A stretch of DNA of 64,000 bases from Phyllobacterium sp. 628 (GTDB lineage Bacteria; Pseudomonadota; Alphaproteobacteria; Rhizobiales; Rhizobiaceae), in NCBI RefSeq assembly GCF_014189505.1, contig NZ_CP050303.1:310001-374000 (forward strand), given 5' to 3'. The translations under genes were made by a program, and so were the position numbers. Positions 14,542 through 62,043 of the stretch are shown here, piece after piece. The notes beneath the pieces were generated by a model. It had not been told where the DNA came from. It ran no database searches and worked only from the letters and a program-made list of their open reading frames with translations. Numbering within the stretch: position 1 is the stretch's first letter; every line of letters begins with the position of its first letter.

Positions 14542-14558
14542 AGCTTACCTTCCCATTT

Positions 14559-14592: not shown

Positions 14593-14614
14593 GAGAGGGC
14601 TGCCGGAGAACATT

Positions 14615-16405: not shown

Positions 16406-16450
16406 TTGCGGATGCAGGAAATTTTTCCAACCCAGAAGGAGCGGATCAGC

Positions 16451-40933: not shown

Positions 40934-40970
40934 TTGAGCCTATGTGATCTCTTTGCTATCATTGAGATCA
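40934..40970 (+). promoter_or_regulatory. FitAB-type promoter with embedded inverted-repeat operator
   Basis: TTGAGC (40934-40939) and TATCAT (40957-40962) are 17 bases apart and form a sigma70-like promoter. TGATCTC (40945-40951) and GAGATCA (40964-40970) form a perfect 7-bp dyad 12 bases apart that brackets the -10. A toxin-antitoxin complex bound here would block its own promoter. Confidence 0.65.
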
Positions 40971-40982
40971 ATGGAGGCATAA

Positions 40983-42986: not shown

Positions 42987-42997
42987 AATCGCTACCC

Positions 42998-44005: not shown

Positions 44006-44094
44006 AGCCTTGCGATCTTTCACTTCTGTCGCCACGGCGACGATGGAACCTTGGGAGTGGCGCTTTTATCTGGATGGAGCGGCTTTAATATTTA

Positions 44095-44109
44095 TGAGTA
44101 TAATAATCA
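44095..44109. promoter_or_regulatory. Iron-responsive operator (RirA IRO box) before exbB
   Basis: TGA, nine AT-rich bases, TCA matches the TGA-N9-TCA core of the RirA-bound IRO box known in rhizobia. It lies about 90 bases upstream of exbB. The short core occurs by chance, but its place before an iron-uptake operon makes it credible. Confidence 0.6.
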
Positions 44110-44156
44110 ACTATTAACTGCCGCAACCCCTGTTTTAACCGGGAGACATTTCACAC

Positions 44157-45251
44157 TCAGTCGTCCCGGCGCGCATTGTCGCCATCAAAGCCGCGACGCC
44201 AGTATGCGACGACCAGATGTTTCTCGCGGTCGTGTTTGCGTTCTTTGCGCAGATAGGAGCGGATCGCCTTGAAGTCGCTGAATTCACAACCGGCCCAGAC
44301 AAACGTGTCGGGAGACAATGTTGCGGCATCAAGTTCCCGAACAATTTCAGCGAGCTTTCCGGTCGTTCCCGCCGCTGCTCCATTACGAAACTCCCAGCGG
44401 TAATCTATAGTCGCGGATGTTGGGAAATCCTGCTGATCCGCCAGACTGTCTATTTCCAGAATGACTTTTGCCTTGGCGTGCGCAGGCAGCGTTTCCAAAA
44501 TTCGTCCAATGGCGGGCAACGCGGTTTCATCACCGACAAGCAAATATTGCGGCGCTTCTTCCACGCCGCCGCCACCGGGGCCGGTCATGCCGACAATATC
44601 GCCAGGCTTGGTATTCAGCGCCCATGTCGCGCCGGGTGTGTTGCCGCCGGGGTGCACAACCATATCGATATCAACTTCGCCGTGCGCCACATCGATGTTG
44701 CGGATCGTGTAAACCCGGGCAATCAACGCATCCTCTCCATTCGGCCAGACCGGACGCCCATCCCGCCCCATGCTGGGCCACTTCGGTGCCCTTCCCTCTG
44801 GAGCAAACAATAACCGGATATGCAGGCCACCCGTTGCAAACCGGGCAATATCATCGCCCCGCAAAGTGACGCGGCGCATATGCGGCGTCAGGTCACGAGC
44901 GGAGACCACGCGCATCTCGCGGAAATAGGGCAGCGTGGTTCCCGAGAGCCCATCGCCATTCCATGACAGATGCGGCTTCTCGCTACCGGCAATATCAAGA
45001 ATATTATCGGCGAGGATCATCCGGACATAGGCGAGCGATGTTTCATCATCCGCTTCAACGTCGAGGGAAAGCACATCCCCCGCAACCAGCAACCGCGCCT
45101 TGCCGTAAGGTGTTTCAATACGGCCTTCCAGCGGATCACGGTCCACTCGCGAATATTCGGCATACAGCGCGCAAAGCTTGTCGAGCATATCTACCGGCGC
45201 CTGAAGTTTAACCGCAGCAGAGCTGCTCAGAACATGAGGCACGACAGACAT
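44157..45251 (-). CDS. Siderophore-interacting protein (ferric-siderophore reductase)
   Basis: A 364-residue protein. An N-terminal DUF2218-like domain (about residues 15-95) is followed by the SIP/ViuB flavin-binding barrel (RRVTLRGDDIARFATGG and RVYTIRNID near residue 180) and a NAD(P)H-binding SIP C-terminal domain (YLLVGDETALPAIGRIL). The family reduces iron inside the cytoplasm to release it from siderophores. CAGGAG seven bases before ATG 45251 fixes the start. It ends next to the exbB control region. An IRO-like box lies 80 bases upstream, so it probably shares iron control with the TonB genes. Confidence 0.92.
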   Translation of the reverse strand: MSVVPHVLSSSAAVKLQAPVDMLDKLCALYAEYSRVDRDPLEGRIETPYGKARLLVAGDVLSLDVEADDETSLAYVRMILADNILDIAGSEKPHLSWNGDGLSGTTLPYFREMRVVSARDLTPHMRRVTLRGDDIARFATGGLHIRLLFAPEGRAPKWPSMGRDGRPVWPNGEDALIARVYTIRNIDVAHGEVDIDMVVHPGGNTPGATWALNTKPGDIVGMTGPGGGGVEEAPQYLLVGDETALPAIGRILETLPAHAKAKVILEIDSLADQQDFPTSATIDYRWEFRNGAAAGTTGKLAEIVRELDAATLSPDTFVWAGCEFSDFKAIRSYLRKERKHDREKHLVVAYWRRGFDGDNARRDD

Positions 45252-45288
45252 GGCATTCTCCTGGCAATTTCTCACCGGATGCATGAGC

Positions 45289-45301
45289 CTAAGACTCTTA
45301 G
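45289..45301. promoter_or_regulatory. Short palindrome in the siderophore-interacting gene leader
   Basis: CTAAGA, one base, TCTTAG is a perfect 6-bp dyad 38 bases upstream of the siderophore-interacting gene, between its start and the IRO-like box. Its binder is unknown; it may be a second regulator site or a leader hairpin. Confidence 0.35.
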
Positions 45302-45330
45302 AACGGTGATGCCGGGACATTAGTAAAATA

Positions 45331-45415: not shown

Positions 45416-48400
45416 TCAGAACTTTCCGACCACGTTGAGGAATACACCCTGATCATTGAGCGTCAAATCTCTCAGATCATCGGAGAACGAGCCGAAATTG
45501 TAGCCAACGCCGACCTTGAAGTTTTCACCGACATGCCGGTAGAGAGCAACAAGTGCGCCAAAGTCCGTGGTCTTGGCCTCCGGCATGTGCAGCACGCGCC
45601 CTTCCAGCAGTCCATCCCAATTCTTGACGATGTGCAGGTCGGTGCGAATGATCCCAAGGTGAGCTGACGATGTCTGCCACTCGTCAAACTTGTCACGATC
45701 ACCTTCAAGCAGACGCTGGCGCACCTCGCCATAACGGAAGCCGTATTTGCCACCGACGGAAAGCCACGGGAACAGATCGTAGGTAAAGTCTGCCGACATG
45801 ATGTGGCTGCGTTGTGACGGACCATACTCGTCACCGGTTATTGCGCTGACCTGATTTTCGCCCGGCGCATCATACAGCCAGGTATATTTGAACAGGGCAT
45901 TCAGCCGGTCATTGTCAACAGGCCGATAGGCATAGCCAAAGGATGCCTCAACATAGTTGCCATCGCGGAAAGAGCTCTCCGAGCTTGAATCCGAAAGAAC
46001 AGCATCAACATTGACCAGCATACGCCAGTTATCATTGGTCTTGTAATTCAGACCCGTGGCGAAGAGATAGGTGTTTCTGTCCCGTGTGCCGTCATCGGAA
46101 TCTTCGAAGCGGGCTTCACCGCGGACACGCGCCGTAATCTTGTCATTGTCTTTGTATCCGACCGACAAGGAGACAGCTTTGCGGTCAAAGTCGGAACGGT
46201 CAAGACCGGTGCTGGGATCGATCGTATCGTCCTGGATCGTTCCGGCTTCAAAGCCGCCATCGACCGTCCATTGCTTGTCGGGCGTGTAAACGACGCCGTA
46301 GGATTTTGTGATGGAGTCGCGCTGACCGAACAGATCGTAATTGTTCTCGGCATAGGCCGACCAATATTCGTCAAACTTGCGCCGTGCGCCGAAGACGATG
46401 GAACCCTTGTCAACGCCAGACAGATCATAGGAGCGCTCCAGATCAAACGCCCTGTCAGGATCGAGACGATAGCCAAAATAGTAACTGTCGTCCGCCGTGG
46501 GATTGTAGGTTATAGCCGCCAGCGCGCCTACACCGGTTTCACCATAGGACACTTCGCCTTCAAGACCGATCTTGTCGGTGAGCTTGAATTTGGACCCCAC
46601 ACCGATGCGGTCACCGCGATCGAGATCGCCCGAATAAGCAACAGTCGCCTGACCAAAACCGTAATAGGTGTGATCCGCATCCGGCGCATATTCCAGCCGC
46701 ACACCCAGATCCACACGTGAGCCGTTATAACCGTCCTTGCGGATCGAAGATGCACGCGGATTGGATATGTCGATATAGCTGACACCGAACGAGGCTTTCC
46801 AGTATTCGTTCAACTGCTTGCTGACCGATGCTGTTCCCTTGCGCTTGGTGCGCCCGCCGAGTTCACGGCCGTCAAATTCGCTCCGGGCATTGGATTCAAC
46901 AAAATCGTCATAGGTCAGGTTCAGCTTGACGTCCTTGGTCACATCCACATCCGCGTGGGCACCCCAGATGCGCTGATCAACGGAGATCTGATCGGACAGC
47001 GTCGAGAAACCGGCCTGCTTCTGTTCGTAGTAAGCGCCGACTGTGCCCTTCATACCGCTCTTGGTAATATCCTCCAGAGCCACCTGCCCCTTGGCTCTCC
47101 AGGCGACAGCGGCACGGTTCCGCGTTCCGGTTGTATCGATATCGCTCAGCGTCAAGCCGCCATCCGTGGACCGCGATGAACCAAAGCCGGGGCCCTTGGA
47201 ATGAGAAATTTCTCCTTCAAGGAAGGTTTTTTCCGAGTGGCGTATCTGGATGTCGGCACCATAGGCCTGCTGGTTGGCAAGACCCGTGTTTTCGTTCATT
47301 CCGGTGACACCGATACGAACCTTGTCATCAAACCATTGCTGCGCACGGCCGCCATAGACATAACCGTCAAGATCGCCTGCCAGCGGTGTAAACTCATACT
47401 GGGAGATGAGGTAAACCTTATTGCCGCCCAAGGCACCTTCGCGCACGGGACTATCGGTTACCGTTGAGGATGACAGCGGCCGCTTCAAAATCAACATGCC
47501 CTGCAGATAGTCGAACGAATAATCTTCGCCATAGCGCAGCGAACGGCGCTCTATCACCTGATTGGTGGTTGAATCACGCACTTCAACAGTCACGGTTTCC
47601 GAACCGACAGTGATATCCTGCCGGCGCATGAAGTAAGCCGATCCGCCTGTACCAAGAAATTCGTCACGCTGCGGCAGCGTGTCGGGCTGCGCGGCATAGA
47701 GCGTTACTTCGGTCTTGCGCTCACCAAAAGGCGTGGTGGCTTCCGATCGGTAAACACCGCTTGCACCATACAGAGCCCGTTCGGACCGCATGAATTCCGT
47801 GCCTTTGATAATGGCTTTGTAATTGCCCCACATCACATGGCTGTCGCCGCGATCGAGGCGGACATAGAACTTGCCATTGGTCGGTGCATCATCGACAACC
47901 GTCGAGTCGTCGCCATAGATCGGATAAAACTCATTCGGATCAAGCCGGCGCAACAATTGACGCGGGTCCTTGGCATCCAAGCCGCGGAAGAGGTTTCCGA
48001 GTTTGTCTTCGCCCGTATCCCCGGCAGCAGTCAGCAGATACTGACCTTTGATCTTGCCCTTCAGATAGAAGGCCAGCCTGCCCTTTGTATAAACATCGTC
48101 ATATTCACCGGAGCGGACAGTTTCGATGTTTTTGTCGCCGAACCGCTTTCCGACAGTCAGGTCAGCGAGAGCAACATAGAACCAGTCGTTCTTGGGAATG
48201 TTGATCTGACGCTTGAAATCAAGCGCACTGCCCTTCAACGAGCCAAGCACTGCAACATCCACATCGTGATCGCCCGGCGGCAATATGCGCTGCATCACAA
48301 AGGCATGGTCAGGGTCGATAGGTATGGTGTCGTTCAGCGCGCGGACCTGATACCCCTCGGGAACGTTGCGGCCATAAACGGTAACCGCACCACCATAGAT

Positions 48401-49252
48401 CTGGATGTTGCGCAACGCAGTATTGTCTTCACCCATACCGGGCGCTACCGCATCGGTAACCTTGCCCTGATTTTCCGGCGGGAGTTCCCGGTCGGTGCGC
48501 GCAAGCGGGCGCGCCATGGTTTCATCGTAGCGGCCCTTGTCATCATAAACGCGCAGGACATATTTGAAACGGGTCTCGTCGTTCTTTGTCTGCGGCATGA
48601 CCCATCCGGCTTCGCCATTGACGGCAACAGGAATGACCGCGGCAGGCGTTTCAGTGACCTGATCCTTCCCTTCAAAGATACGGATTTCCGAGCGGGTGAT
48701 AAAGGCCGGATAGTTGGACGTTGCGAGGAACCGGACCGGTTCCCCCACGCGATAAGACCGCCTGACCGGCGTGGTCGAGACGTTCAATACCGGTTTGGTA
48801 TCGAGACCGTCGAACTTCACCTGAATGTCGACAGCGCTCAAACCCACATCGGCTTTGCGCTGGCGGTCCGGGGTCTTCTCGGCAGATACCTGAGCTGGCT
48901 TCGCTGGCGCTGCACCGGGTTTTTCCGGCTTCTTGCTTTCGACAACCGGTTCGCCGTCAACACTGATCGAGAAGGGAATATTTCCGGCTTCGCCGGGTTT
49001 TTCCTGTTCGACATTGGGGGCAATGCGCGCGCCTTTGACGGCGACGCTGCTGTCAAGAACCTTGCCGCGCAGCGCAGATGTGCAGGCCGTGTCGAGGCAC
49101 TCCTGCTTCGGAGCCTGTTCCTGTGCACGCGCCGGAACAGCGGCAAAACTTGCACCAACAATGGCACAACCGGCGAGCAGCAAACGGCGGCGCATACCAA
49201 TATCCAAAGTGGATGTGTTACGAACCTTTGAGTTAACGCGGGTCATTTTCAT
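45416..49252 (-). CDS. Large outer-membrane beta-barrel protein, partner of giant repeat protein
   Basis: A 1278-residue exported protein I cannot assign to a named family. A signal peptide ends near PARAQEQ (about residue 44). A Pro/Glu/Lys-rich segment with two cysteines follows, then an Ig-like beta-sandwich (about 150-260, STTPVRRSYRVGEPVRF), a second beta region (about 280-400) and a middle region up to about 640. From there to the end alternating short strands with aromatic turn residues and a terminal Phe (VVGKF) indicate an outer-membrane barrel. No TonB box or plug is evident. Its ATG overlaps the stop of the giant repeat gene by four bases, so the two are coupled. It may anchor, translocate or bind the giant. 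ATG 20 codons later is an alternative start. Confidence 0.7.
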   Translation of the reverse strand: MKMTRVNSKVRNTSTLDIGMRRRLLLAGCAIVGASFAAVPARAQEQAPKQECLDTACTSALRGKVLDSSVAVKGARIAPNVEQEKPGEAGNIPFSISVDGEPVVESKKPEKPGAAPAKPAQVSAEKTPDRQRKADVGLSAVDIQVKFDGLDTKPVLNVSTTPVRRSYRVGEPVRFLATSNYPAFITRSEIRIFEGKDQVTETPAAVIPVAVNGEAGWVMPQTKNDETRFKYVLRVYDDKGRYDETMARPLARTDRELPPENQGKVTDAVAPGMGEDNTALRNIQIYGGAVTVYGRNVPEGYQVRALNDTIPIDPDHAFVMQRILPPGDHDVDVAVLGSLKGSALDFKRQINIPKNDWFYVALADLTVGKRFGDKNIETVRSGEYDDVYTKGRLAFYLKGKIKGQYLLTAAGDTGEDKLGNLFRGLDAKDPRQLLRRLDPNEFYPIYGDDSTVVDDAPTNGKFYVRLDRGDSHVMWGNYKAIIKGTEFMRSERALYGASGVYRSEATTPFGERKTEVTLYAAQPDTLPQRDEFLGTGGSAYFMRRQDITVGSETVTVEVRDSTTNQVIERRSLRYGEDYSFDYLQGMLILKRPLSSSTVTDSPVREGALGGNKVYLISQYEFTPLAGDLDGYVYGGRAQQWFDDKVRIGVTGMNENTGLANQQAYGADIQIRHSEKTFLEGEISHSKGPGFGSSRSTDGGLTLSDIDTTGTRNRAAVAWRAKGQVALEDITKSGMKGTVGAYYEQKQAGFSTLSDQISVDQRIWGAHADVDVTKDVKLNLTYDDFVESNARSEFDGRELGGRTKRKGTASVSKQLNEYWKASFGVSYIDISNPRASSIRKDGYNGSRVDLGVRLEYAPDADHTYYGFGQATVAYSGDLDRGDRIGVGSKFKLTDKIGLEGEVSYGETGVGALAAITYNPTADDSYYFGYRLDPDRAFDLERSYDLSGVDKGSIVFGARRKFDEYWSAYAENNYDLFGQRDSITKSYGVVYTPDKQWTVDGGFEAGTIQDDTIDPSTGLDRSDFDRKAVSLSVGYKDNDKITARVRGEARFEDSDDGTRDRNTYLFATGLNYKTNDNWRMLVNVDAVLSDSSSESSFRDGNYVEASFGYAYRPVDNDRLNALFKYTWLYDAPGENQVSAITGDEYGPSQRSHIMSADFTYDLFPWLSVGGKYGFRYGEVRQRLLEGDRDKFDEWQTSSAHLGIIRTDLHIVKNWDGLLEGRVLHMPEAKTTDFGALVALYRHVGENFKVGVGYNFGSFSDDLRDLTLNDQGVFLNVVGKF

Positions 49253-52200
49253 TGGCCTGCCTCCACGCGTGTCTCAATGTTCAGTTCGTAGTCTCCTCCA
49301 ACCGTTTTCCATCGTTTTGCGACTTCCTCCTGAACCGCGTCCATACGCTGTTTGGCGAGGTCCTTGTTCGAGTTCGCGGCGTAGCTGATCCGCAGGGTTG
49401 ATGGTTTCTCCTTCAGCACGCTGATGAGCTGATCAACACCCTTGCTCCACTCATTCTTCAGCTCGCTATTTCCGGGCTGGAACGCTTCATCCTTTAGGTC
49501 GAGCCGCACAACACGGCCAAGCGATGCACCGAAATTCAGCGATGACATCTTGCCTGCGGTGAGACGGATGACACGCGGATTTTCTGTCGTCAGGCGATAG
49601 CCGGTCGGCAACGTACGTGGATCAAGCTTCATGATAAAGTTGGAACCGATGCGCGAATCCGGAAGATCGGCACAGGCCACGTGGAAGCGTCCGAACTTGT
49701 CCGTTGTAATAAGCAAGCCGCGCACCGTGGCAACGCGCACGCCCGGCAAGCCCGGCTCGCCATCGTCCTGATAGCCATTGCCATTCAAGTCATCGAACAC
49801 TTTGCCGACGATGTCACCGCAATCGAATACAGGCTCAACCATAATCTCAACGGATGCGCTGGCCTCCGGTGCAAGCGAATTACCGCCCGGTCCTGTGACA
49901 CGCGCCCTGTTCACATGCTTGCCCGGCCCGGCCGTGCTCAATGCCAGCATCTGCAGACGAATGACCACTTCAGCCTTCGGTCCCAAAGCTATGTTTTCAA
50001 AGAAGACATTCAGACCGTTGACAACCGGCGTGACAGCCACGCCGTTAATCGATGCTGATCCCTCGACATAGCGGAAACCGGAAGGCATGCGATCAACGAC
50101 ATTCACCCCGCCAACATTGCTGTTGGTCTTGTTGGTGACCTTGATGGTGAACGGTGCCTTTTCACCACGCCTTATCTGACGCAGGCCAGCCTGCTTGGTA
50201 ATCGTCACATCGGAAGGCTGCGCGGCGGGAAGATCGATGAGCGACTTGGCTTCAGCCGCATCGATGGCCGTTCCGCCGCTGGCACCGCCACGATAGTAGC
50301 CGCGAGCTGTCGCCTTATTCAGAACGCCGTCCTTGACGCCTGCAGCACCATCCACATCGGACTGAGCCAATGTATATGTCGCGGTGAAGGTATGGTTTTG
50401 GCCGGGCGCGATAGCAGTCAGCCCCGGTGAGAACGCACCGAGTTTGTTGGCTGCTGTTTTCCCGTTAAAAGTCGGACCGGCATCGATCGGGGCAATGTCG
50501 TTGACAACCACATTGCCGACATTTGTCACCACGAAATTGTAAGTGATTGTATCGCCGGCATCGATAAATCCGTTGCCATTGACGTCACTGACCTTCCCCG
50601 TCTTTGTAACTTCGATTTTTGGATCCTGCTGGATCGGCGAAGTGACCGAACTCGGCATACTGGTGATTGCGGCGCCGCCGCTGGACGGTGTGCCCGAAGC
50701 CGTGGCTGAATTCACCACTTGCCCCGCATCAAGATCCTGCTGTGTCAGCTTGTAGCGAGCTGTGAAGGTCGTGCTATCCGTCGTTCCCGTCGTAAGCAAT
50801 GCGATAGGCCCGCCAGAGACGACCACATTGGGCAATGTGTCGGCGAGCGTGACATTTGTCAGATCCACGTTGCCCGTGTTGGTCACGACAAATGTGTAAT
50901 CAATCGTCGAGCCGACCGTGCTTCCCGATGGCGTTCCGCCGGTTTTAACGACAGTCAATGTGGCAACCGGGGTCACCGGTGTGGTCACCTGACTAGGAGG
51001 ACTGACAATCGGATTGCCACCCGTTGCGGGCGTGCCAGATACCGTTGCCGAGTTTTCGACTTTGCCCTTGTTCAGATCAGCCTGCGTCAGCGTGTAACGC
51101 GCCTTGAACGTCGTGGTATCCTGCGCACCAGGTGCCAGATCAATGGGTCCGCCTGTGAGCACGATGCCCGCAAGGCTATCATTCAGCGTGATACCGTTCA
51201 TCGTGACATTACCGGTGTTCTTGACGATGAAGGTGTAATCGATCGTCGAACCAACTGTATTCCCGGATGGAGTTCCAGCCTTTTTCTCAACCGTCAGCGC
51301 CGGGGAAAGTGTTGCCTTGGCTGTAGCCGTTACTTCCGGCGACGTAGTGGTTCCATCGGTCGCCTTGGCTTTGTTGGTGACTGATCCAGTATCAAGGTCA
51401 GGCTGCTTGACCGTATAAGTGCCTGTGCAGGTAAGGGTAGCTTTTGGCGCGAGACCGCCCACCGGTAGAGCGGGGCAATTTACGGCGGCAATCTTGTCGT
51501 CCGCAACGGAAATCGGCTGCGTGATCGTCACATTACCGCTGTTGGTCACCAGATAGCGGTAGCTGACAACACTGCCCACGGCCGTATAAGGATCACCAGC
51601 AGTTATCGACTTCACCATCGTTAGTGCAGGCGTTTTTGTTGCCAGCGCCTTCGCTTCAACCTCTGGCGAAACCGTTGTTCCGTCAGTGGCTGTTGCTTTA
51701 TTGGTGACGGAACCGGCATCAATGTCTGTCTGCGTCACCTTATAACTTGCGGTACAGGTCAGCGTCCCCTTCGGGATAAGACCGCCCGCGGGTAATGATG
51801 GGCACTGCACAGCATTGGGTGCTGTGATCTTGTCATCGTTAACCGAAAGCGGCTGTTTGATGGTGACGTTACCGCTATTGGTGACCACGTATTCATAGGT
51901 CACCACATCTCCCGTCACAGCATAGGGATTGCCTGACGTTATGCTCTTGACGAGAACGATCGCCGGAGCCGCCGTGATAGTTGACGTCACGCTGCCAGTC
52001 GCGCTGACAAGTTTGCCATCCAGCGTAGTGCCCGTTGCGGTAACTTTGTTCTTTACTGACCCAAGATCGACGTCAGCCTGAGTGAGCGTATATTCGGCAG
52101 TGAAGGTCGTGCTGTCCACAGCCTTCGGAATGAAGGTGTTGATCGCCGTACCATTCAGCGTAACGCCAGCGAGCTGTTCAGAAAGCATCACATCTTTCAA

Positions 52201-55200
52201 CGTCACATTGCCGGTATTCTCAAGTTTGAACGTGTAGCTGATCTTCGACCCAACAGTGTTGCCCGTCGGCGCACTTGCCGTTTTCACAATCGTCAGCGCT
52301 GGTGCCGACGTGATTGGCGTCGAAACTTTGCTATTGCCCGTTACCGCTGCGCTGTTAGCGGGTTTGCCAGTGGCAGTGACTTCGTTGTCAACTTTACCCG
52401 CGTCGATGTCCCTCTGCTTAAGCTTATAACTAGCTTTGAATGTCGTGCTATCCTCGGCACCGGGGATCAGATCAATCGGACCACCGGTCAGCACAATATC
52501 AGTCAGCGTATCGGTGAGCGTGATGCCCTTCAGCGTCACGTTGCCCGTATTCTTGACGGTGAATGTGTAATCAATGGTCGAGTCGATAATATTACCGGAA
52601 GGAGGACCGGCAGTCTTCACCACCGTAATGGCAGCGGCAGATGCGATAGGCGTTGAGGTACCGCTTGTACCAGTTACGTCAGCCCCGGTCGGTGGTGTAC
52701 CTTTGACACTGGCCGCATTGTCGACCTTGCCAGCATCCACATCATCCGTCTGTTTGAGCGTGTAGGTACCGGTACAGGTTGTTGTTGCATTTGGCGCCAG
52801 TTCCGTCACTGCGCAAACTGGCGGTGTCGGAAGTTTCGTATCGGTAACGGCAATGGCCTTCAGCGTCACATTACCGGTGTTCTTGACCGTGAAAGTATAG
52901 ACGATCGTCGAACCTGCGGTATTGCCCGATGGCGGGCCTGCCGTTTTGACCAGCGAGATTCCGGCAGCGGAAGTAATCGTCGATGTCACCGTGCTATCGT
53001 TCTTGACCACGATACCATTCGGCGCTGTGCCGGAGCCGGTCACAGTGTTGATGACCAAGCCTTTATCGATATCTTCCTGTTTGAGCGTATAGCGCGCAGT
53101 AAATGTCGCCGTGTCCACTGCTCCGGGTTCCAAAGTCGCGATCGCATTTCCGGACAGTACGACACCCGCCAGCTGATCCGAGAGCATGACCTGTGTCAGC
53201 GTGACATTGCCCGTGTTTTCAATCCGGAATGTGTAATCAATGGTCGAACCAACGGTATTGCCGGATGGCGTGCCTGCGGTCTTTTCTACTTTCAGAGCGG
53301 GTGCAGCGGTAATCTGCACGGTCGCCTGATCTCCCGCTGAGACAGCGGCCCCCGTGGGCGGCGTGCCGCTCACCGTAGCCTGATTAACAACACTGCCGGT
53401 ATTCACATCGCCCTGGTCCAGCGTATAGCTGCCGGTACAGGTTGTGCTTATGCCGGGTTCTAGTGTCGTCGCGGCGCATGTCGGAGCAACGGCCAGTTTT
53501 GTATCGGTAATGGCTATTCCTTTGAGGGTCACATTGCCGATATTCTGCACCGTAAAGGTGTAGGGAATTGTCGAACCTTTGACGCTGCCGCTTGGTATAC
53601 CCGCAGACTTCTGAAGCGAGATACCGGGAGCTGAAGCCACCGGAGTCGATGTGGTTGAATTGTTGCTGGTTACAGATGGTGCGCCCCGCGACGGCGTACC
53701 CGTGGCATTGGCTGTGTTGTTGACAACACCGGCGTTCACTTCCGGCTGCGTAATGGCGTAGGTGCCTGTGCACTGTGCGACGTCTTTCGGATCAAGCGCA
53801 GTCTTGTCGCACGTGATCGATGCGATCTTGACGTCATGCACGACAATCGCGGTGACCCTCACATTGCCGGTATTGGTAACCGTGAATGTGTACGGAATTG
53901 TCGACCCCTGACTTTGTCCCGACAAGGTTCCTGCCGACTTCACTATAGACAAGGCAGCAGCGGCCGGAACGTTTGTGGTAAAACTGTCAGGCGGGCTAGT
54001 GATCTTTTGATTGGTCGGCGTAAAGCCGGAAGCCGTCGCTGTATTGGTGATCGTGCCGTTTTCGATATCCGCCTGCGTCAGGGTGTAATCCGCAGTGAAT
54101 ACTTTGCTCTCGCCCGGCTGCATGGTGTACGGGCCACCGCTGACATCAACACTGATCCGGTTGTCGGCCACATCGACAAGCGTCAGCGGGATATTGCCGG
54201 TATTGGTCACTGTAAAGGTGTAGTGAACAATCGATCCGGCCGTATTGCCTGTTGGTGGAGTCGCCGTCTTGACGATGACCAGCGAACCCTCTTCCGGGAT
54301 GATCTTCTCAACGGTTGATGGCGGACTGATCACAGACTTGCCGGTCGCCGTCTGACCTGCAGCAGTCGCAGTATTTGTGACCTTGCCGGCATTGACGTCA
54401 GCCTGGGTCAGCGTATGTGAACCGGTGCAGACTGTCTGCGCACCCGGCGCAAGCGACGTCACGGGACAGGAAGCCGCCGCATCGAGCTTACCATCGCTGA
54501 CAGCGATGTTTGTCAGTGGCAGATTGCCGTCATTCTTTACCGTAAAGGTGTAATCAATCTTCGAACCAGCCCTGTTTTGGGCAGGTGTCCCGGCAACCAC
54601 CGCTTTGACGATGGACAAGGAAGGCTTTTGCTCAAGCAGCGTATCGGTTGAACTTTGCAGGCTTGGAACCGCTGTTTCGTTCGTGTCGGTACCCGATGCC
54701 GTTGCGCTGTTGGTCACATGGCCGCGATCAATGTCAGCCTGCGTGATTGTGTAAACACCGGTTATTGCCGAGCTGGTTTGATTCACTGCCAATGTGGCAA
54801 TCGGGTTGCCTGAAAGGACAACACCGGCGAGGCTTTCTGTTACCGTGACGTTTGTGAGCGGCAGATTACCCGTATTTGTAACCGCAAATGTGTAAGGGAT
54901 GGTCGATCCGACAGTGCTGCCCGTTGGTGTTCCATGGGTCTTGACCAGCGTCAATTGCGGCGTTTGTGCAATGGCGACAATCGCACTGGCGCTGGCATCA
55001 ACGGAAGCGCCTGCGGCCGTCTGTCCAGCGGCTGAAGCAGTGTTTACCACCTCGCCCTTGTTCACATCCGCCTGGGTCAGGATATACGTGGCCGTGAATA
55101 CATGTGTATCACCCACCGCAAGAGCCACAGGTCCACCTGGAACCGTTACCAGCGGATCTGTAACATTGACATTGCTCAATGGCAGGTTGCCGGTGTTCTT

Positions 55201-58200
55201 AACCGTGAACGTATAAACAACGGTTGAACCAGCCGTATTGCCGGATGGCGTTCCAGCCGTTTTGACCAAACTGATGTTTGGCTCTGCTGCAATCGGCGTT
55301 GTCGTGCCGGATGAATTACTGTTGACGGGTGACGTACCGCGCGATGGCGTGCCGCTTGCAGTCGCCGTGTTCACCACCTTGCCGGCATTCACCTCGGGCT
55401 GCGTGATGGCGTAAGTGCCCGTACAGGTCGTTACCGCTTCCGGCACAAGCGAGGTAGGATTGCATGTAACACTCGTCAATTTCGGATCATTGATCGCTAT
55501 ATTTGTGACAAGCACGTTACCCGTATTGGTGACTTCAAATGTATAGACAATCGTTGAGCCTGCGGCATTGCCCGACGGCGCAGCGGCGCGCTTGACCAGC
55601 GACAAAGCTGGTGCCGCGCTGATCGTCGTTGATGTTGTCGATGGCGCGCTGGTGAAATCAGCACCGCCACCCTGCGGTGTACCTGTCGCAGTCGCGCTGT
55701 TGTTGACAACGCCCGCTTCAATGTCCGCTTGGACAAGGGTGTATGTCGCCGTGAATGTGGTCGTATCAACAGCACCCGGCACGAATGTCGGGATCGGACC
55801 ACCGGCCAGAATGATGTTTGGCAAAAGATCCGCGACTTTCACGTTTGTCAACGTCACGTTGCCGGTATTTTCGATCCGGAATGAATAGGTAATCGTGTCG
55901 CCCACCCGGTTGCCTGTGAGGGCTCCGGCGGTCTTGACGATGGTCAGGTTCGGCGTGCGGGTGATCGGCGTCGCTGTGGTATCCGGTGTGCTTGTCACGC
56001 TAGCACCGGTCGGAGACGTTCCCGTTGCCGTTGCGCTGTTAGTCACCGTTCCGGCGTTAACTTCGCCCTGTGTAATCGTATGGGTGCCTGTGCATGTCGT
56101 GTTTGCACCGGGAACCAATGTCGTTACAGGACAGGTAGCAACTGCATCCAGTTTCGCATCGTTGATCACAAGTCCGGTCAGCGTCACATTGCCCGTATTA
56201 ACAACGTTGAATGTATAGCTGATCGTTGCGCCTGCAGCATTACCGGTCGGCGTTCCCGCTACCTTGTCGATGGTCAATGCAGGTACGCGCGTAAGTGTTG
56301 TATCTGTCGTGGACGGGCCGCCAGTAATGGCCGGTCCGGACGGCGGCGTGCCGCTCACCGTTGCCGAGTTGCTGGCCCTGCCGGCGTTCACTTCCGCCTG
56401 GGTGATGGTATGCGTACCCGTGCATGTCGTGCTGGCATTGGGCGCAAGTGTGGTTGCCGCGCAGACCGCAGCCGCATCCAGCTTTGCATCCGTGATTGCA
56501 ATCGTCGTCAGCGTTACGTTACCAGTGTTCTTGACCGTAAACGTATAGGGAATTGTCGACCCCGCCGTATTGCCCGTCGGTGTTCCCGCAACCTTGTCGA
56601 TGGTGATTGACTTCGACTGGGTGATCGGAGTCGTGGTGGTTGACGGCGTGCTTGTAACAGGGCCCGTTGGCGATGTGCCCGTAGATGTCGCCGAGTTGGC
56701 GACCTGACCGGCATTAATATCGGCCTGGGTCAGCGCATAAGTGCCTGTACAGGTGGTGTTTGCGCCCGGTGCCAGCGTCGTTACCGTACAAACCGGCGCA
56801 GCCGGAAGCTTCGAATCGTTCACGGCAATATTGGTCAATGTCACGTTGCCGGTGTTTGTTACTGTGAACGAATAGGCGATCGTTGATCCCGGGGTGTTGC
56901 CTGTCGGTGCACCTGCGGACTTCGCGATTGCGATTGATGACGAACGTGTCAATGGCGTGGCTGTGCCATCCGGGGTGCTGATCGCCTTGGGTCCGGTCGG
57001 CGGTGTGCCATTGGCAGTGGCGCTGTTATCCGCAGTTCCCGCATCAACCTCAGCCTGCGTGATCGTATGCGAGCCAGTGCAGATCGTGCTGTCGCCCGGC
57101 TGCAATGTCGTCGCCGGACAGGTGGCAGGACTGCTCAGTTTCGCATCATTGATGCCGACGGATGTTAACGTGACGTTGCCGGTGTTCTTCACGGTGAACG
57201 TGTAGGCAATGGTACCGCCCGCTGCATTGCTAGTTGGCGTGCCTGCGGCCTTGTCGATCGTCAGCGCCGGTGCGCTGGCAAGCGGGGTGGCTGTGGTGCT
57301 TGGCGGGCTGGTGATGGCGCCACCGGTTGGCGGTGTCCCACTCGCAGTGGCACTGTTGTTCGATGTTCCGGCGTTTACTTCCGCCTGCGTAATCGTATGT
57401 GTACCGGTACACGTTGTGCTGGCATTCGGTACAAGCGTCGTTGCAGCGCATGTTGCGGCGGCATCCAATTTCGCATCGTTGATGACAACCCCTGTGAGGG
57501 TGACATTGCCTGTGTTTTTCACCGTGAACGTGTAAGGGATCGTCGATCCGGCTGTTGCTCCAGTTGCAGTACCCGCAACCTTGTTGACGGTCATCGATGC
57601 GGAGCGGGTTAGCGGCGTATTGACAGTTGAAGTACCGCTGTTGACCGGGCTGCCATCAGGACCTGTCGTGGTTGCACTTGCCGTATTGTTGGAGGTCCCG
57701 GCATCGACTTCGGCCTGGGTGATCGTGTGGGTACCGGTACAGGTGGTTACTGCACCTGGCGCCAGTGTCGTCTGCGCGCAGGTGGCACCCGGCGCATCAA
57801 GCTTTGCGTCGTTAATAACCAGAGTGATCAGCGTGGTGTTGCCGGTGTTTTGAACCCGGAAGGAATAAGCAATGGTTGAACCTGTGGTATTGCCCGATGG
57901 CGCACCCGCAGTCTTCACAATGGAAACCGAACCAGTCCGGGTGAGCGGTGTTGATGTCGTGCTGGGACCGCCATTGACGGGATCACCGGTTGGCGGTGTG
58001 CCACGCACCGTTGCACTATTATCAACCTTACCGGCGTCCACTTCAGCCTGAGTGATCGTATGCGTACCGGTGCAGATCGTGTTGGCATTCGGGGCCAGCT
58101 GCGTAACGGGACATAACGGACCTGGAGCGGGAATCTTGGGGTCAGTGACCACGATGGATTTCAGCGTCACATTGCCGGTATTCGTTACGGTAAAGTTATA

Positions 58201-59991
58201 GTTGATCGTCGAGCCCGCCGTACTGCCACTCGGCACGCCTGCAGCCTTCGCAATTGTTATTGTAGGGGTGGACGCAATCGTTGTCGTCGTCGTGCTTGGC
58301 GGCGTTGTGATTGGTGTCGCACCACCGGGCGGTGTGCCTGTTGCGGTCGCGCTGTTTGTGACAGTGCCCGCATCCACTTCCGCCTGTGTGATCGTGTGCG
58401 TGCCCGTGCAAACCGCGCTGGCACCCGGTGCCAGCGGCGCGGACGGACAGGTAGCCGCTGCGTCCAGCTTCGGATCGGTGATCGACGATGGTGTAAGCGG
58501 AACGTCGCCGGTATTCGTAATGGTGAAGCTGTACGTAATCTTCGATCCAGCTGTTGTTCCAGTTGGCGTACCCGCGCTTTTTACCATCGTCATGGATGGG
58601 CGTTTTGGCGTGTTGGTAAAGGTACACGTGATGTCGTCACCCGCTGTTGGGGTAACAGAGAAACTTGTCCCGGCTCCCGACGGCAATGTCGTCGTTGCCC
58701 CGGACTTGGCATTTGTACAGGCGATCGTACCGCCATAGAGTGCGATAGGGCTGGAGCTGCCGCTCGCCATCGCTTCTGAAAGCGTGTAGGCCGTGCCAAC
58801 CGAAATATTGGAAAGCTGAGCCTGACCATTGGCCGCTGCACCTGCGCCTGTCGTATCGACGGAAACCGGCCCATTGGCACCTGCAATCGTCAGCGCAAAC
58901 TGATCGCTTGCCGCGACACGTGTTCCGGTCAATGCCTTCTTCACGGTAAGGCGCGCATCGTCATCGAGGATCGTGTAGGTCGAGGTACCGTTGGCAGCGG
59001 CGCCACAGGACGTCGCACTGGCAATCGTGTACGATCCTGGATTGGCCGTCATCGTAAACACGATTGTTTTGTTCGGTTCGATGACAGTGTCATTGACGAT
59101 TGAGACGCCGGTCGCAATGGTTTGCGTACCGTCGTAATCACCGGCAGGGATGGTCACGTTAAATGTGTTCGTCCCGTTTGGCGTGGTGTAATCGGTCGTC
59201 AGTGCGGCTGTACCACTAAGTGTTACCTGTACTGTTATTGCAGAGGTCAGAGTACCCGCAACGCGGAAGGCAGGCAGGTTCGCGGTCGGGATGCTTTCGG
59301 CACCCGACGCGCTTCCGGGCTGGAATTCCACGTAAGGCGACAAGGTAATCTGAATGTTATCAAGAAAGTTGCCGACACTGCCTGAATTAAGCGATTCAAA
59401 TCCAAGCGTCTGCACACCTGAGGCACCGTTATATGTGTAGGTGCCACTTCTGTTGAACCACGAACTTGCATTCGCATCCGATCTGGAGATCTGCGTCGTC
59501 GCCCCCGTGGGTGTCGAAGCAATGTTGAACGAGATGCTTTCTGTACCACTGGTTGCCCGGCGGCGATGCGAAAACTGCCAGTTGAAGCGTTCACCACTGA
59601 CAAGGCAAACGTTCTGGTACAGACGCGAAGAGACGTTCGCATTCAACTCAACGAACTGCGACCCCTGTGCCGCTGGCACGCCTTGGAACCCGCTGCCCCA
59701 AAACTCCATCAACCGCCCGGTCGATGCAACCGGCTTGGTTGGGCAACTGCTGCTCGTTGCGGCAGATGGATGTGTTGTTTCCCAACCCGGAACCTCGCTG
59801 TCAGGGAAGAACGCAATACAGTTTGTTCCGCCCAGATTGGGGCTTTCAAAACCTTGGTTGATGAAACTGCGCTGAACCTGCCCGTAAGCAAATTCGGGCA
59901 ATGCTGCTGCAAAGAAAAGCAATAAAAAAGCAAAGACAAATGGAAGACGCAGAAGGTGTTTTTGAATGATGGTTGCGCCGCCGTATTCCAA
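49249..59991 (-). CDS. Giant secreted repeat protein (3580 aa) with 25 DUF11/DUF7507-like domains and OmpA-like C-terminus
   Basis: A 3580-residue exported protein. It starts at TTG 59991 (AGGA five bases upstream) with a hydrophobic signal peptide ending near FAYGQ. Residues about 40-220 resemble a beta-jellyroll lectin-like domain. A Calx-beta-like segment and a further domain (about 220-460) follow, then 25 tandem repeats of about 110 residues to about 3255. After these come one divergent DUF11 domain, an SdrD-B-like domain with a calcium-loop type DLNGNGYQDDGEPG, and a degenerate OmpA-like end (FQPGNSELKNEWSKG). The repeats share the ITYSFTVTNTGNVTLT core. Fifteen keep a cysteine pair and ten lack it. 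No autotransporter barrel or type I signal is seen. A surface adhesin or envelope filament is the best inference. The barrel-protein gene overlaps the stop. Confidence 0.85.
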   Translation of the reverse strand: MEYGGATIIQKHLLRLPFVFAFLLLFFAAALPEFAYGQVQRSFINQGFESPNLGGTNCIAFFPDSEVPGWETTHPSAATSSSCPTKPVASTGRLMEFWGSGFQGVPAAQGSQFVELNANVSSRLYQNVCLVSGERFNWQFSHRRRATSGTESISFNIASTPTGATTQISRSDANASSWFNRSGTYTYNGASGVQTLGFESLNSGSVGNFLDNIQITLSPYVEFQPGSASGAESIPTANLPAFRVAGTLTSAITVQVTLSGTAALTTDYTTPNGTNTFNVTIPAGDYDGTQTIATGVSIVNDTVIEPNKTIVFTMTANPGSYTIASATSCGAAANGTSTYTILDDDARLTVKKALTGTRVAASDQFALTIAGANGPVSVDTTGAGAAANGQAQLSNISVGTAYTLSEAMASGSSSPIALYGGTIACTNAKSGATTTLPSGAGTSFSVTPTAGDDITCTFTNTPKRPSMTMVKSAGTPTGTTAGSKITYSFTITNTGDVPLTPSSITDPKLDAAATCPSAPLAPGASAVCTGTHTITQAEVDAGTVTNSATATGTPPGGATPITTPPSTTTTTIASTPTITIAKAAGVPSGSTAGSTINYNFTVTNTGNVTLKSIVVTDPKIPAPGPLCPVTQLAPNANTICTGTHTITQAEVDAGKVDNSATVRGTPPTGDPVNGGPSTTSTPLTRTGSVSIVKTAGAPSGNTTGSTIAYSFRVQNTGNTTLITLVINDAKLDAPGATCAQTTLAPGAVTTCTGTHTITQAEVDAGTSNNTASATTTGPDGSPVNSGTSTVNTPLTRSASMTVNKVAGTATGATAGSTIPYTFTVKNTGNVTLTGVVINDAKLDAAATCAATTLVPNASTTCTGTHTITQAEVNAGTSNNSATASGTPPTGGAITSPPSTTATPLASAPALTIDKAAGTPTSNAAGGTIAYTFTVKNTGNVTLTSVGINDAKLSSPATCPATTLQPGDSTICTGSHTITQAEVDAGTADNSATANGTPPTGPKAISTPDGTATPLTRSSSIAIAKSAGAPTGNTPGSTIAYSFTVTNTGNVTLTNIAVNDSKLPAAPVCTVTTLAPGANTTCTGTYALTQADINAGQVANSATSTGTSPTGPVTSTPSTTTTPITQSKSITIDKVAGTPTGNTAGSTIPYTFTVKNTGNVTLTTIAITDAKLDAAAVCAATTLAPNASTTCTGTHTITQAEVNAGRASNSATVSGTPPSGPAITGGPSTTDTTLTRVPALTIDKVAGTPTGNAAGATISYTFNVVNTGNVTLTGLVINDAKLDAVATCPVTTLVPGANTTCTGTHTITQGEVNAGTVTNSATATGTSPTGASVTSTPDTTATPITRTPNLTIVKTAGALTGNRVGDTITYSFRIENTGNVTLTNVKVADLLPNIILAGGPIPTFVPGAVDTTTFTATYTLVQADIEAGVVNNSATATGTPQGGGADFTSAPSTTSTTISAAPALSLVKRAAAPSGNAAGSTIVYTFEVTNTGNVLVTNIAINDPKLTSVTCNPTSLVPEAVTTCTGTYAITQPEVNAGKVVNTATASGTPSRGTSPVNSNSSGTTTPIAAEPNISLVKTAGTPSGNTAGSTVVYTFTVKNTGNLPLSNVNVTDPLVTVPGGPVALAVGDTHVFTATYILTQADVNKGEVVNTASAAGQTAAGASVDASASAIVAIAQTPQLTLVKTHGTPTGSTVGSTIPYTFAVTNTGNLPLTNVTVTESLAGVVLSGNPIATLAVNQTSSAITGVYTITQADIDRGHVTNSATASGTDTNETAVPSLQSSTDTLLEQKPSLSIVKAVVAGTPAQNRAGSKIDYTFTVKNDGNLPLTNIAVSDGKLDAAASCPVTSLAPGAQTVCTGSHTLTQADVNAGKVTNTATAAGQTATGKSVISPPSTVEKIIPEEGSLVIVKTATPPTGNTAGSIVHYTFTVTNTGNIPLTLVDVADNRISVDVSGGPYTMQPGESKVFTADYTLTQADIENGTITNTATASGFTPTNQKITSPPDSFTTNVPAAAALSIVKSAGTLSGQSQGSTIPYTFTVTNTGNVRVTAIVVHDVKIASITCDKTALDPKDVAQCTGTYAITQPEVNAGVVNNTANATGTPSRGAPSVTSNNSTTSTPVASAPGISLQKSAGIPSGSVKGSTIPYTFTVQNIGNVTLKGIAITDTKLAVAPTCAATTLEPGISTTCTGSYTLDQGDVNTGSVVNQATVSGTPPTGAAVSAGDQATVQITAAPALKVEKTAGTPSGNTVGSTIDYTFRIENTGNVTLTQVMLSDQLAGVVLSGNAIATLEPGAVDTATFTARYTLKQEDIDKGLVINTVTGSGTAPNGIVVKNDSTVTSTITSAAGISLVKTAGPPSGNTAGSTIVYTFTVKNTGNVTLKAIAVTDTKLPTPPVCAVTELAPNATTTCTGTYTLKQTDDVDAGKVDNAASVKGTPPTGADVTGTSGTSTPIASAAAITVVKTAGPPSGNIIDSTIDYTFTVKNTGNVTLKGITLTDTLTDIVLTGGPIDLIPGAEDSTTFKASYKLKQRDIDAGKVDNEVTATGKPANSAAVTGNSKVSTPITSAPALTIVKTASAPTGNTVGSKISYTFKLENTGNVTLKDVMLSEQLAGVTLNGTAINTFIPKAVDSTTFTAEYTLTQADVDLGSVKNKVTATGTTLDGKLVSATGSVTSTITAAPAIVLVKSITSGNPYAVTGDVVTYEYVVTNSGNVTIKQPLSVNDDKITAPNAVQCPSLPAGGLIPKGTLTCTASYKVTQTDIDAGSVTNKATATDGTTVSPEVEAKALATKTPALTMVKSITAGDPYTAVGSVVSYRYLVTNSGNVTITQPISVADDKIAAVNCPALPVGGLAPKATLTCTGTYTVKQPDLDTGSVTNKAKATDGTTTSPEVTATAKATLSPALTVEKKAGTPSGNTVGSTIDYTFIVKNTGNVTMNGITLNDSLAGIVLTGGPIDLAPGAQDTTTFKARYTLTQADLNKGKVENSATVSGTPATGGNPIVSPPSQVTTPVTPVATLTVVKTGGTPSGSTVGSTIDYTFVVTNTGNVDLTNVTLADTLPNVVVSGGPIALLTTGTTDSTTFTARYKLTQQDLDAGQVVNSATASGTPSSGGAAITSMPSSVTSPIQQDPKIEVTKTGKVSDVNGNGFIDAGDTITYNFVVTNVGNVVVNDIAPIDAGPTFNGKTAANKLGAFSPGLTAIAPGQNHTFTATYTLAQSDVDGAAGVKDGVLNKATARGYYRGGASGGTAIDAAEAKSLIDLPAAQPSDVTITKQAGLRQIRRGEKAPFTIKVTNKTNSNVGGVNVVDRMPSGFRYVEGSASINGVAVTPVVNGLNVFFENIALGPKAEVVIRLQMLALSTAGPGKHVNRARVTGPGGNSLAPEASASVEIMVEPVFDCGDIVGKVFDDLNGNGYQDDGEPGLPGVRVATVRGLLITTDKFGRFHVACADLPDSRIGSNFIMKLDPRTLPTGYRLTTENPRVIRLTAGKMSSLNFGASLGRVVRLDLKDEAFQPGNSELKNEWSKGVDQLISVLKEKPSTLRISYAANSNKDLAKQRMDAVQEEVAKRWKTVGGDYELNIETRVEAGQ
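50230..58600 (-). repeat. Tandem array of 25 ~330-bp repeats encoding DUF11/DUF7507-like domains
   Basis: I counted 25 units from the translated sequence, each about 108-115 residues. The consensus runs from a lysine-threonine start (VKTAGTPSGN), through IxYTFTVTNTGNVTL, to a threonine-rich linker. Fifteen units (1-8, 10, 13, 15, 16, 18, 21, 22) have a Cys pair about 12-15 residues apart around TTLxPG; ten (9, 11, 12, 14, 17, 19, 20, 23-25) replace it with a GGPI-type loop and no cysteine. Boundaries are approximate. At the DNA level the units are diverged, not perfect copies. Confidence 0.85.
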
Positions 59992-60022
59992 TTAATCCTA
60001 CCCCGTATTAAACTATTTAAAA

Positions 60023-60722: not shown

Positions 60723-61940
60723 TTAAACGATACCCCAGGCGCGATACCGGCCCCGGCCCGTCATCTCGCGTACACCCAGCTCCGCAACAAGATTGAGCGC
60801 ACCGCGTGACGTCACCTTCAATTCTTTGGCGATCAGCGCAGTCGAGACCATGGGGCGCGACAGAATCAAATCGATCATACCCGGCAGACTTGAGGTGGAA
60901 CGCCGGTCCTTCAATTTCCGCTCCATCTGCACTCGCGCGAGACTGAGGCGGTCAATTTCCTTCAGATTGGCAATAGCCGATGTTTGTGCGGCTTCCAGAA
61001 AGGCCGATAGCCGCGTGTTACGGTCACGCGCACGGCGGCGGTCACGCGGGATTGTTCGCAAACCGGCATTGAAGGCCGCCAGATGGGCGCGCGTTTTCGA
61101 CCGTTCGCGCAGCATCGATGCGACAAGCATGGGCCCAAGCCAATGCTGATGTTGCAATGGCTCGATATCTTCCCATGCATCCCAGAGCAGCGCAGCCGCA
61201 AGCATCGGCGGCAAATCGCGGGTCCGGTCAAGCACGGCGTACCATTGCTCCAATCGTCTGTCTTCGTCCCAGTCAGGATCATAGACCAATGGGTCGCCAT
61301 CCGGCGTCACGTCACTGGCCGAAGCCTTTCTGTTTCTGGATGCTTTTTCCGGGTGTCCGGCTTCCGCCGGTTGCTCGTCAGACGAGGGCTGGTTCAACAG
61401 ACGCGCCGACCGGTCAAGCAAAGCATCGAGCCGCGCCAACTCCTCCTCGAAAGCATTTTCAGCTTCGGAGCTTGGTTCACTCTCATTGTCGGGTTCCGGG
61501 CGTATGACGCGTTCATTGACAATGGGCGCGAGCAGCGTGTCAGTACCCCAGCGGCCACGCAGACTGGCAATACCTTTGGGACTGAGTGCCCATTGCGCCG
61601 GACTGGCAGAAATCTGCCGGCGCGTTCGCAAGATGGCATGCGCCCGGGTCAATTCGTGCGTTGGGGTACGGATGTCCATCCGGGCATCATGCAGCACGAG
61701 GTCTTCGACATGAACAAGTTCCCCCGACAGCCAGAGCGAATTGCAGGCTTCCATAAAATGCGAACGCGCAATCCAGCCCTCGTTCTCACGCAGGAGTCCA
61801 TCTTTTGATTGACGGCTACCCAACTCACCAAAGTCACCCTTGCGCGCTACGCGCTCATCCAGCCGCGCCAAGGCATCTTCGGCAGCAACAACCGGGCGAA
61901 GCAGATCTTTGAGTGAGTAGTCCGTAGAATCATAAGTCAT
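60723..61940 (-). CDS. RHE_PE00001-family protein (DUF1612 with HTH DNA-binding domain)
   Basis: A 405-residue protein that resembles the rhizobial RHE_PE00001 family: a conserved N-terminal DUF1612-like region (DALARLDERVARKG and GWIARSHFMEACNSLWLSGELVHVEDLVLHD shortened here to its core) and a C-terminal winged helix (ALIAKELKVTSRGALNLVAELGV). The middle is acidic and low in complexity (about 155-215). The family is named after a gene on a Rhizobium etli plasmid; its function is not established. The HTH suggests DNA binding. It is followed on the same strand by the AT-rich leader of the giant-protein unit, so it could regulate that unit, but this is speculation. Confidence 0.75.
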   Translation of the reverse strand: MTYDSTDYSLKDLLRPVVAAEDALARLDERVARKGDFGELGSRQSKDGLLRENEGWIARSHFMEACNSLWLSGELVHVEDLVLHDARMDIRTPTHELTRAHAILRTRRQISASPAQWALSPKGIASLRGRWGTDTLLAPIVNERVIRPEPDNESEPSSEAENAFEEELARLDALLDRSARLLNQPSSDEQPAEAGHPEKASRNRKASASDVTPDGDPLVYDPDWDEDRRLEQWYAVLDRTRDLPPMLAAALLWDAWEDIEPLQHQHWLGPMLVASMLRERSKTRAHLAAFNAGLRTIPRDRRRARDRNTRLSAFLEAAQTSAIANLKEIDRLSLARVQMERKLKDRRSTSSLPGMIDLILSRPMVSTALIAKELKVTSRGALNLVAELGVREMTGRGRYRAWGIV

Positions 61941-62043
61941 TGAAATAATGATAAGGGAATAGTGAAAGTGAAGCTATTGCCCGGTCCATAAAAGAAAACT
62001 CTTCAATCGGGAACGATGCAAACAGTTTGGTTCCACGCACCTT

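Follow-up and report, generated by a model that had tools for sequence, protein, structure and literature searches.

A giant repeat protein and a large outer-membrane barrel, encoded by overlapping genes in the soil bacterium Phyllobacterium sp. 628, appear to form a two-component export-and-anchor system for surface display, in which the tail of the giant would dock the fibre on its cognate barrel; we give this reading a probability of about 0.6. The partnership itself is strongly supported by sequence comparisons, which showed co-retention of the two proteins, a colinear domain order, fusions, and single barrels accompanied by several unlinked giants. That the pair is kept together across Proteobacteria, fused or shared, points to an undescribed route for surface fibres. 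An earlier sequence-only reading of the window (the whole 64,000-nt stretch analysed) had placed the two ORFs, of 3580 aa and 1278 aa on the minus strand, at coordinates that proved exact. It had also noted that the stop of the giant overlaps the ATG of the barrel gene, which we confirmed as an ATGA at 49249-49252. The features of the locus are as follows.

59997..60004, minus: Shine-Dalgarno-like GGGGTAGG, 5 nt 5' of the giant's TTG (read from sequence)
49249..59991, minus: giant fibre gene, 3580 aa, TTG start (ORF; full-length orthologues in two relatives)
59881..59991, minus: the giant's putative Sec signal peptide, about aa 1-37 (read from the translation)
58957..59880, minus: head region of the giant, aa 38-345, presumed binding end (without known family)
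58606..58950, minus: SpaA_3 prealbumin-like domain of the giant, aa 348-462 (Pfam, 1.6e-29)
50275..58602, minus: stalk of the giant, 25 tandem DUF7507/CLIPPER_2 domains, aa 464-3239 (Pfam and self-derived profile)
49834..50199, minus: tail part 1 of the giant (whole tail, aa 3265-3580), DUF11/CLIPPER domain
49516..49833, minus: tail part 2 of the giant, SdrD_B-like domain, which holds most invariant columns
49252..49515, minus: tail part 3 of the giant, degenerate OmpA-like domain
49260..49264, minus: Shine-Dalgarno-like GGAGG of the barrel gene, within the giant's end, 7 nt 5' of the ATG
49249..49252, minus: ATGA overlap of giant stop and barrel start (read from sequence)
45416..49252, minus: outer-membrane barrel gene, 1278 aa, ATG start (ORF and predicted fold)
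49124..49252, minus: putative signal peptide of the barrel protein, about aa 1-43 (read from the translation)
48413..48832, minus: first Ig-like domain of the barrel protein, about aa 141-280 (strand pattern of the model; boundaries by eye)
48167..48412, minus: second Ig-like domain of the barrel protein, about aa 281-362 (strand pattern of the model; boundaries by eye)
45419..48166, minus: beta-barrel domain, aa 363-1278, with C-terminal F (predicted fold)

Pfam identified 25 DUF7507 stretches, four DUF11 stretches and one SpaA_3 domain in the giant. A profile built from the giant itself likewise found 25 stalk units at residues 464-3239, in agreement with the 25 tandem domains counted by the sequence-only reading. 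These units share a mean identity of 45%, and cysteine pairs occur in 15 of the 25 (30 Cys). A table in PMC12617251 gives Lys, Asp and Asn as the isopeptide-bond residues of DUF7507; across the giant's stalk units, Lys and Asn were each present in 25/25 and Asp in 23/25, with Glu in two. We predict that each of the 25 Ig-like stalk domains is stapled by an isopeptide bond. No Pfam family matched best in the head, which the sequence-only reading had called jellyroll-like, and a PDB sequence search with it returned no match; the head region may end in a Calx-beta-like part. Behind the stalk, the SdrD_B match of the giant itself was sub-threshold in Pfam (18.9 bits vs. a cut-off of 29.7); 35/35 members matched SdrD_B in tail part 2 at E up to 1. 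The C-terminal end has a predicted beta-alpha-beta-alpha-beta fold order and aligned to six true OmpA domains from related loci with a probability of only 37% in hhalign. It gave no Pfam match to the OmpA family (PF00691), and inspection found the peptidoglycan-binding TD..G to be absent.

The giant was open with 25 repeats in all three congeneric genomes examined, which excludes a chance ORF. Two of these copies are full length (3579 and 3581 aa), and the third runs off the end of its record. Identity to the giant was 88-91% in the tail and 74-85% in the stalk. For the head, the full-length copies gave 75% and 82%, and the cut copy gave 92% across 173 residues. In P. pellucidum (L005, 3-2130), the reading frame of the giant is broken within the tail, which may be real or an assembly error. 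A promoter scan gave 7 matches vs. 11.8 in shuffles, and we claim no promoter because matches were rarer than in shuffles.

The beta-barrel domain has 34-41 strands of at least 8 residues in a weak predicted model (pLDDT 67, pTM 0.49, residues 255-377 below 50), and strand number and pore width are uncertain for this reason. No family in Pfam or NCBIfam scored above cut-off for the window barrel. Among 28 diverse barrels, the Pfam matches were mainly to general porin-like, OmpA, SdrD_B, DUF11 and Ig-like families, and the 25 of 44 NCBIfam families listed were mostly OmpA-type. The barrel family, unnamed so far, is given here as the cognate partner of stapled fibres. A viral structure library yielded no useful match, and none of the phage records searched matched the barrel. 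Two cyanobacterial plasmid records (H21 and H22) showed partial barrel matches of 25-26% identity at about 392-782 of the query, hinting that the family may reach beyond Pseudomonadota. The giant/barrel pair is also carried by a plasmid of Sinorhizobium meliloti (T073).

The barrel served as query in a single scan of GTDB contigs, which yielded the 58 related loci analysed here. A tail protein lay directly upstream of the barrel in 42 of them, three of which have a broken barrel (L050, L053 and L059). Scoring by script covered 40 of the 42 (L050 included; L053 and L059 outside) and found the in-frame ATGA overlap in 37/40; by-eye reading located TGGAG shortly 5' of the ATGA in 35 of these 37. 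Because L015/L027 and L023/L056 share one contig, these loci are counted but not independent. Every one of the ten loci without a partner beside the barrel came from Nitratireductor-named records. The barrel of L058 is truncated and has no partner, L042 is ambiguous, and L013, L022, L026 and L036 are uninformative on the upstream gene because they begin at or inside the barrel or have no readable start. The contig shared by L023, L056, L015 and L027, from Pseudorhizobium tarimense, carries two barrels with short giants (about 550-580 aa) facing each other; the L015 and L027 barrels are identical, and an inverted duplication or an assembly artefact is possible.

The arrangement extended to 20 loci picked from the strongest distant barrel matches (L149-L168), where giant and barrel were adjacent in 20/20 and the giant came first in 19/20, with a spacing from a 4-nt overlap to a 45-nt gap. 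The order is reversed in L156 (2539-16680), where the giant lies 45 nt downstream of the barrel, and L168 has a barrel split over two ORFs. Partner lengths ranged from 657 aa (L209) to 4354 aa (L152), and the stalks varied (SpaA_2 and DUF11 in L012, Big_9 in L165) while the tail stayed constant. Two tandem tail-bearing giants lie upstream of one barrel in L209 (8340-12424) and L024 (1-10004).

Co-occurrence was examined in partly overlapping phylum, order, genus and chosen-genome samples; in the phylum sample, the same 397 genomes were searched with the barrel and with the tail. The large genome searches scored at most two barrel and at most five tail candidates per genome. At the search's own threshold of E 0.001, the barrel was present in 51/397 genomes of the phylum and the tail in 60/397; 50 of these 60 carried the barrel, and the other ten had tail matches below 40 bits and no barrel. 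With a tail cut of 50 bits, which was chosen after the scores were seen, 50 genomes had a tail and 50/50 had the barrel, and 50/51 barrel genomes had such a tail. The order gave the same pattern, with the barrel in 21/397 genomes and the tail in 29 at E 0.001, of which 20 had the barrel and the remainder had matches below 40 bits; all 20 genomes with a tail of at least 50 bits had the barrel, and 20/21 barrel genomes had such a tail. In the genus, the barrel was found in 10/20 genomes and the tail in 9/20 (9/10 barrel genomes with a tail of at least 50 bits), and 9/10 chosen genomes contained a tail or tail fragments. Fisher tests, which ignore kinship, gave 4e-63 (phylum), 9e-33 (order) and 6e-5 (genus). 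Asked whether each gene routinely occurs alone, a test named at the outset, all four samples favoured pairing. The four exceptions over all samples, with a barrel and no strong tail, are broken or truncated barrels: a short 91-residue ORF with a stop in the phylum (G248), a two-piece barrel containing a stop in the order (G564), a match to only the final 114 barrel residues in the genus (G007), and a truncated barrel without tail (G461). Part of this co-occurrence, and of the tail-tree clustering described below, could stem from linked inheritance and kinship, but these do not account for co-retention when the genes are unlinked.

The solo Nitratireductor barrels first looked like evidence against the pairing, and a whole-genome tail search turned them into evidence for partnership in trans. 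The search covered 10 chosen genomes, with that of L047 left out. One genome (G454) has one barrel at 1.94 Mb and four tail ORFs at 1.42, 2.81, 2.81 and 3.18 Mb, up to about 1.2 Mb from the barrel, with open frames of 1384, 1161, 1645 and 1439 aa. Single barrels also coexist with four tail ORFs in G458, four in G459, and five plus a fragment in G457. Both G452 and G455 have two barrels, the former with three tails and the latter with one complete and two partial tails; the tail of G453 is broken over two frames, G456 has two short tail fragments, and G460 has three strong tails alongside a broken solo barrel and a pair-type barrel at a contig edge. In stretches L201, L202 and L204-L208, tail ORFs were listed with no barrel ORF among them; the tail ORF of L203 was left out of the ORF listing by an overlap filter. 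These distributions suggest that a solo barrel serves unlinked tail-bearing giants.

In a tree of 80 barrels, from which the broken barrel of L054 was left out, the solo barrels form one clade (9 rows, SH-aLRT 100). In the tail tree, built from 68 tails, the 17 tails labelled as trans required 2 changes vs. 15.3 in shuffles (0/500 as low), a difference to which relatedness contributes. Fourteen of the 17 group together with support of 92/96, and both this group and the solo barrels sit beside the L033/L035/L037 group, at a fork without resolved order. The trans-labelled tails L191, L192 and L193 do not join these fourteen; since the genome of L193 contains, in addition, a pair-type barrel located at a contig edge, that tail may instead belong to a truncated cis pair. 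G452, the one genome in the tail tree with both types, has its cis tail among cis tails and its trans tail among trans tails. The sequence-only reading had argued from coupled translation for a role of the barrel in handling, anchoring or displaying the giant. The partnership was borne out, but coupling is not essential, because some Nitratireductor genomes combine one solo barrel with several giants whose genes lie apart from it.

The partnership reading gains further strength from fusions and from a split point that moves. In another Phyllobacterium locus (L081), a single 1725-aa chain comprises DUF11, SdrD_B and the barrel. A chain from another family (L082), far from L081 on the barrel tree, contains DUF11, SdrD_B, an OmpA-like stretch (by inspection), Ig domains and the barrel. 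A distant group of 20 loci (L169-L188) comprises 13 single DUF11-barrel ORFs, four split pairs and three cut or fragmentary cases. The 13 fused ORFs are about 1614-2417 aa long, one being cut by a contig end, and their matches to the barrel profile fall mainly in its first part; a crude hydrophobicity scan for signal peptides found a hydrophobic stretch near the start in 12/12 examined, and an aromatic C-terminal residue was found in 0/12. In all fusions seen, the giant part comes first and the barrel is C-terminal. The position of a bona fide OmpA domain varies: it closes the giant in L165, opens the barrel protein in L078, L149 and L152, lies within the fusion L178, and is encoded by a gene of its own in L080. 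Given these placements, the order repeats-DUF11-SdrD_B-[OmpA]-[Ig]-barrel appears constant in the cases examined despite the shifting gene boundary. In L080 itself (4216-16581), a plasmid gene cluster of Acinetobacter haemolyticus, the separate OmpA-family gene is accompanied by genes for several DUF11 proteins and for a DUF11-barrel fusion.

We propose that the giant is a fibrillar adhesin, exported by Sec and composed of a head, a stapled 25-domain stalk and a C-terminal tail. The tail (DUF11, SdrD_B-like, OmpA-like) would act as an address label that docks in the periplasm on the cognate barrel, at or near its Ig-like domains. Head and stalk would then leave through the unusually large barrel, N-terminus first as in autotransporters, until the tail arrests export and stays in the periplasm as both stop and anchor. 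To get out, the stapled stalk domains would need either a wide pore or some means of staying unfolded. Since folded stapled domains presumably cannot be re-threaded, a wide barrel would suit them, and this option fits the size of the modelled barrel. The steps differ in how firmly they can be held: the tail very probably docks physically on the barrel, the stalk is likely to be surface-exposed, and the odds that the fibre passes through its cognate barrel, not another pore, are about even.

With its tandem DUF11/DUF7507 stalk and its Lys-Asp-Asn triad, as read from sequence, the giant classes as a CLIPPER-type fibrillar adhesin (PF01345/PF24346). A Gram-negative fibrillar adhesin with a DUF11/CLIPPER stalk and an OmpA-like anchor is described for Acinetobacter silvestris (B9T28_05395, PDB 9IFR; PMC12617251, PMC10952558). 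The giant resembles such adhesins in its DUF11/DUF7507 stalk, isopeptide staples, OmpA-like end and long single chain; in passages of these two papers they are described alone, whereas our comparison adds a cognate barrel. The words 'secretion', 'outer membrane' and 'barrel' are absent from the main text of PMC12617251, that of PMC10952558 lacks 'secretion' and 'outer membrane', and the accessible text of PMC8286594, on fibrillar adhesins, mentions no such barrel partner. As far as these texts go, proteobacterial adhesins with a DUF11 stalk and an OmpA end are already published, and the barrel and the exit route are not. Our searches of open-access literature brought up no account of the barrel or of how the fibres leave the cell, and the barrel has no curated family, which supports the earlier suggestion of an undescribed envelope system.

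The window pair had been reported to lack the marks of type I, two-partner and autotransporter export, and our searches agreed. In two-partner secretion (type Vb, FhaB/FhaC), a very large secreted protein has a barrel of its own, the two genes often sharing an operon, and our pair resembles this arrangement. Type Vb differs in its N-terminal address, compared with the proposed C-terminal one here, and the window barrel is much larger; no ShlB/POTRA or TPS-domain match was found in the giant or barrel (Pfam, E 0.1) or in the 28 barrels (0.01). In classical autotransporters (type Va/Vc), an N-terminal passenger and a C-terminal barrel share one chain. Our fusions resemble this layout, but the pair usually occupies two genes and one barrel can accompany several giants in trans. 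The window barrel matched neither PF03797 nor the YadA anchor; YadA_anchor matched 1/28 diverse barrels at 9e-4, and the other tested export families matched none. Inverse autotransporters (type Ve) carry the barrel N-terminally, before the passenger, whereas the fusions here carry it C-terminally, and the window proteins gave no intimin barrel match. Type I/RTX adhesins carry RTX repeats and lack a Sec signal, in contrast to the giant with its Sec-type signal peptide (by reading), in which Pfam found no RTX match. Chaperone-usher systems export subunits, unlike the single giant chain here; the fimbrial Usher profile (PF00577) matched neither the window barrel nor the 28 barrels, leaving structural similarity only. 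Type IX secretion, as treated in the accessible text of PMC7463736, combines the very large SprA barrel with several cargoes that share a C-terminal domain and one translocon. The system here is similar in its very large barrel, conserved cargo C-terminus and several putative cargoes per barrel, but type IX belongs to Bacteroidota and the giant/barrel system to Pseudomonadota. NCBIfam gave no SprA match, and TIGR04189 had no match in the genome, as it had none in the controls; SprA ranked second for the barrel in Foldseek at a TM of 0.18, a score that other barrels reach alike. For type XI (Slam, DUF560), neither the window proteins nor the 28 barrels gave a TPR/DUF560 match. PMC12282271 surfaced for DUF11, yet its available text is mostly on DUF1194, and it was set aside.

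The tested export families failed or stayed undecided on their defining feature, and we therefore rate the giant/barrel system, provisionally, as a new kind. In its fullest form, a new Pseudomonadota outer-membrane secretion system would comprise an Ig-bearing giant barrel, a DUF11-SdrD_B-OmpA-like tail signal, stapled fibres exported with the tail as anchor, cargo in cis or in trans, and fusions as the autotransporter form; we hold this tentatively, at somewhat below even odds. Known adhesins would thereby gain an unnamed cognate barrel family, a candidate C-terminal address, a natural trans experiment and natural fusions, and the outer-membrane passage of stapled DUF11 fibres is turned from an open into a testable question. 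If true, this would be a further Gram-negative protein export route, with possible use in displaying very long, very tough proteins. The rating as a new kind falls if the barrel proves to be a mere anchor, holding the tail in the outer membrane while the fibre exits by another pore. The genetic evidence (adjacency and co-occurrence) is equally compatible with that arrangement, the OmpA-like tail and the true OmpA domains elsewhere resemble anchors, and such ends are termed anchors in passages of PMC10952558 and PMC12617251. We nevertheless consider it rather unlikely, as none of the other genes around the pair in the window turned up next to related loci L001-L075 and the fusions already carry a barrel in the same chain.

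Other explanations fared less well against export and anchoring by the barrel. OmpA-like domains act in the periplasm, so giant and barrel might stabilise the envelope as a scaffold whose repeats stay there, but partners of 657-4354 aa far exceed the width of a periplasm. Variable stalks and stapled domains are moreover typical of surface fibres according to the accessible text of PMC12617251, and we regard a periplasmic scaffold as improbable. Some records annotate the barrel as 'TonB-dependent receptor', although record annotations disagree, and a TonB-dependent transporter with an incidental adhesin would agree with the siderophore-interacting, exbB, exbD and tonB genes just downstream of the barrel in the window, with the siderophore-type ABC transporter genes near solo Nitratireductor barrels (L031), and with the TonB-dependent transporters that Foldseek and VIA list for the barrel. 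However, no Plug or TonB_dep_Rec match was found in the window barrel (E up to 0.1) or in the 28 barrels (E up to 0.01), and the window's iron genes occur in none of the other loci L001-L075, which makes this reading very improbable. Least probable in our view is that the two genes are neighbours without physical partnership, kept by joint transfer. Such transfer would suit the patchy distribution (barrel in 21/397 genomes of the order) and the 24 plasmid records with a barrel match, 19 of which cover at least 80% of the barrel, but it sits poorly with the fusions, the moving split point and co-retention when the genes are unlinked.

In the window, genes for a siderophore-interacting protein, ExbB, ExbD and TonB follow the barrel on the same strand (41674-45320). 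We considered TonB energisation as a conserved part of the system and rejected it, these four genes being confined to the window among L001-L075. A 177-aa ORF at 40940-41473 had no Pfam match at E 0.001. Upstream of the giant, on the same strand, 60723-63990 encodes a DUF1612/HTH_13 protein and a FUSC family protein. In L031 (2621-18075), the solo Nitratireductor barrel lies between siderophore-type ABC transporter genes and acyl-CoA carboxylase/dehydrogenase-type genes.
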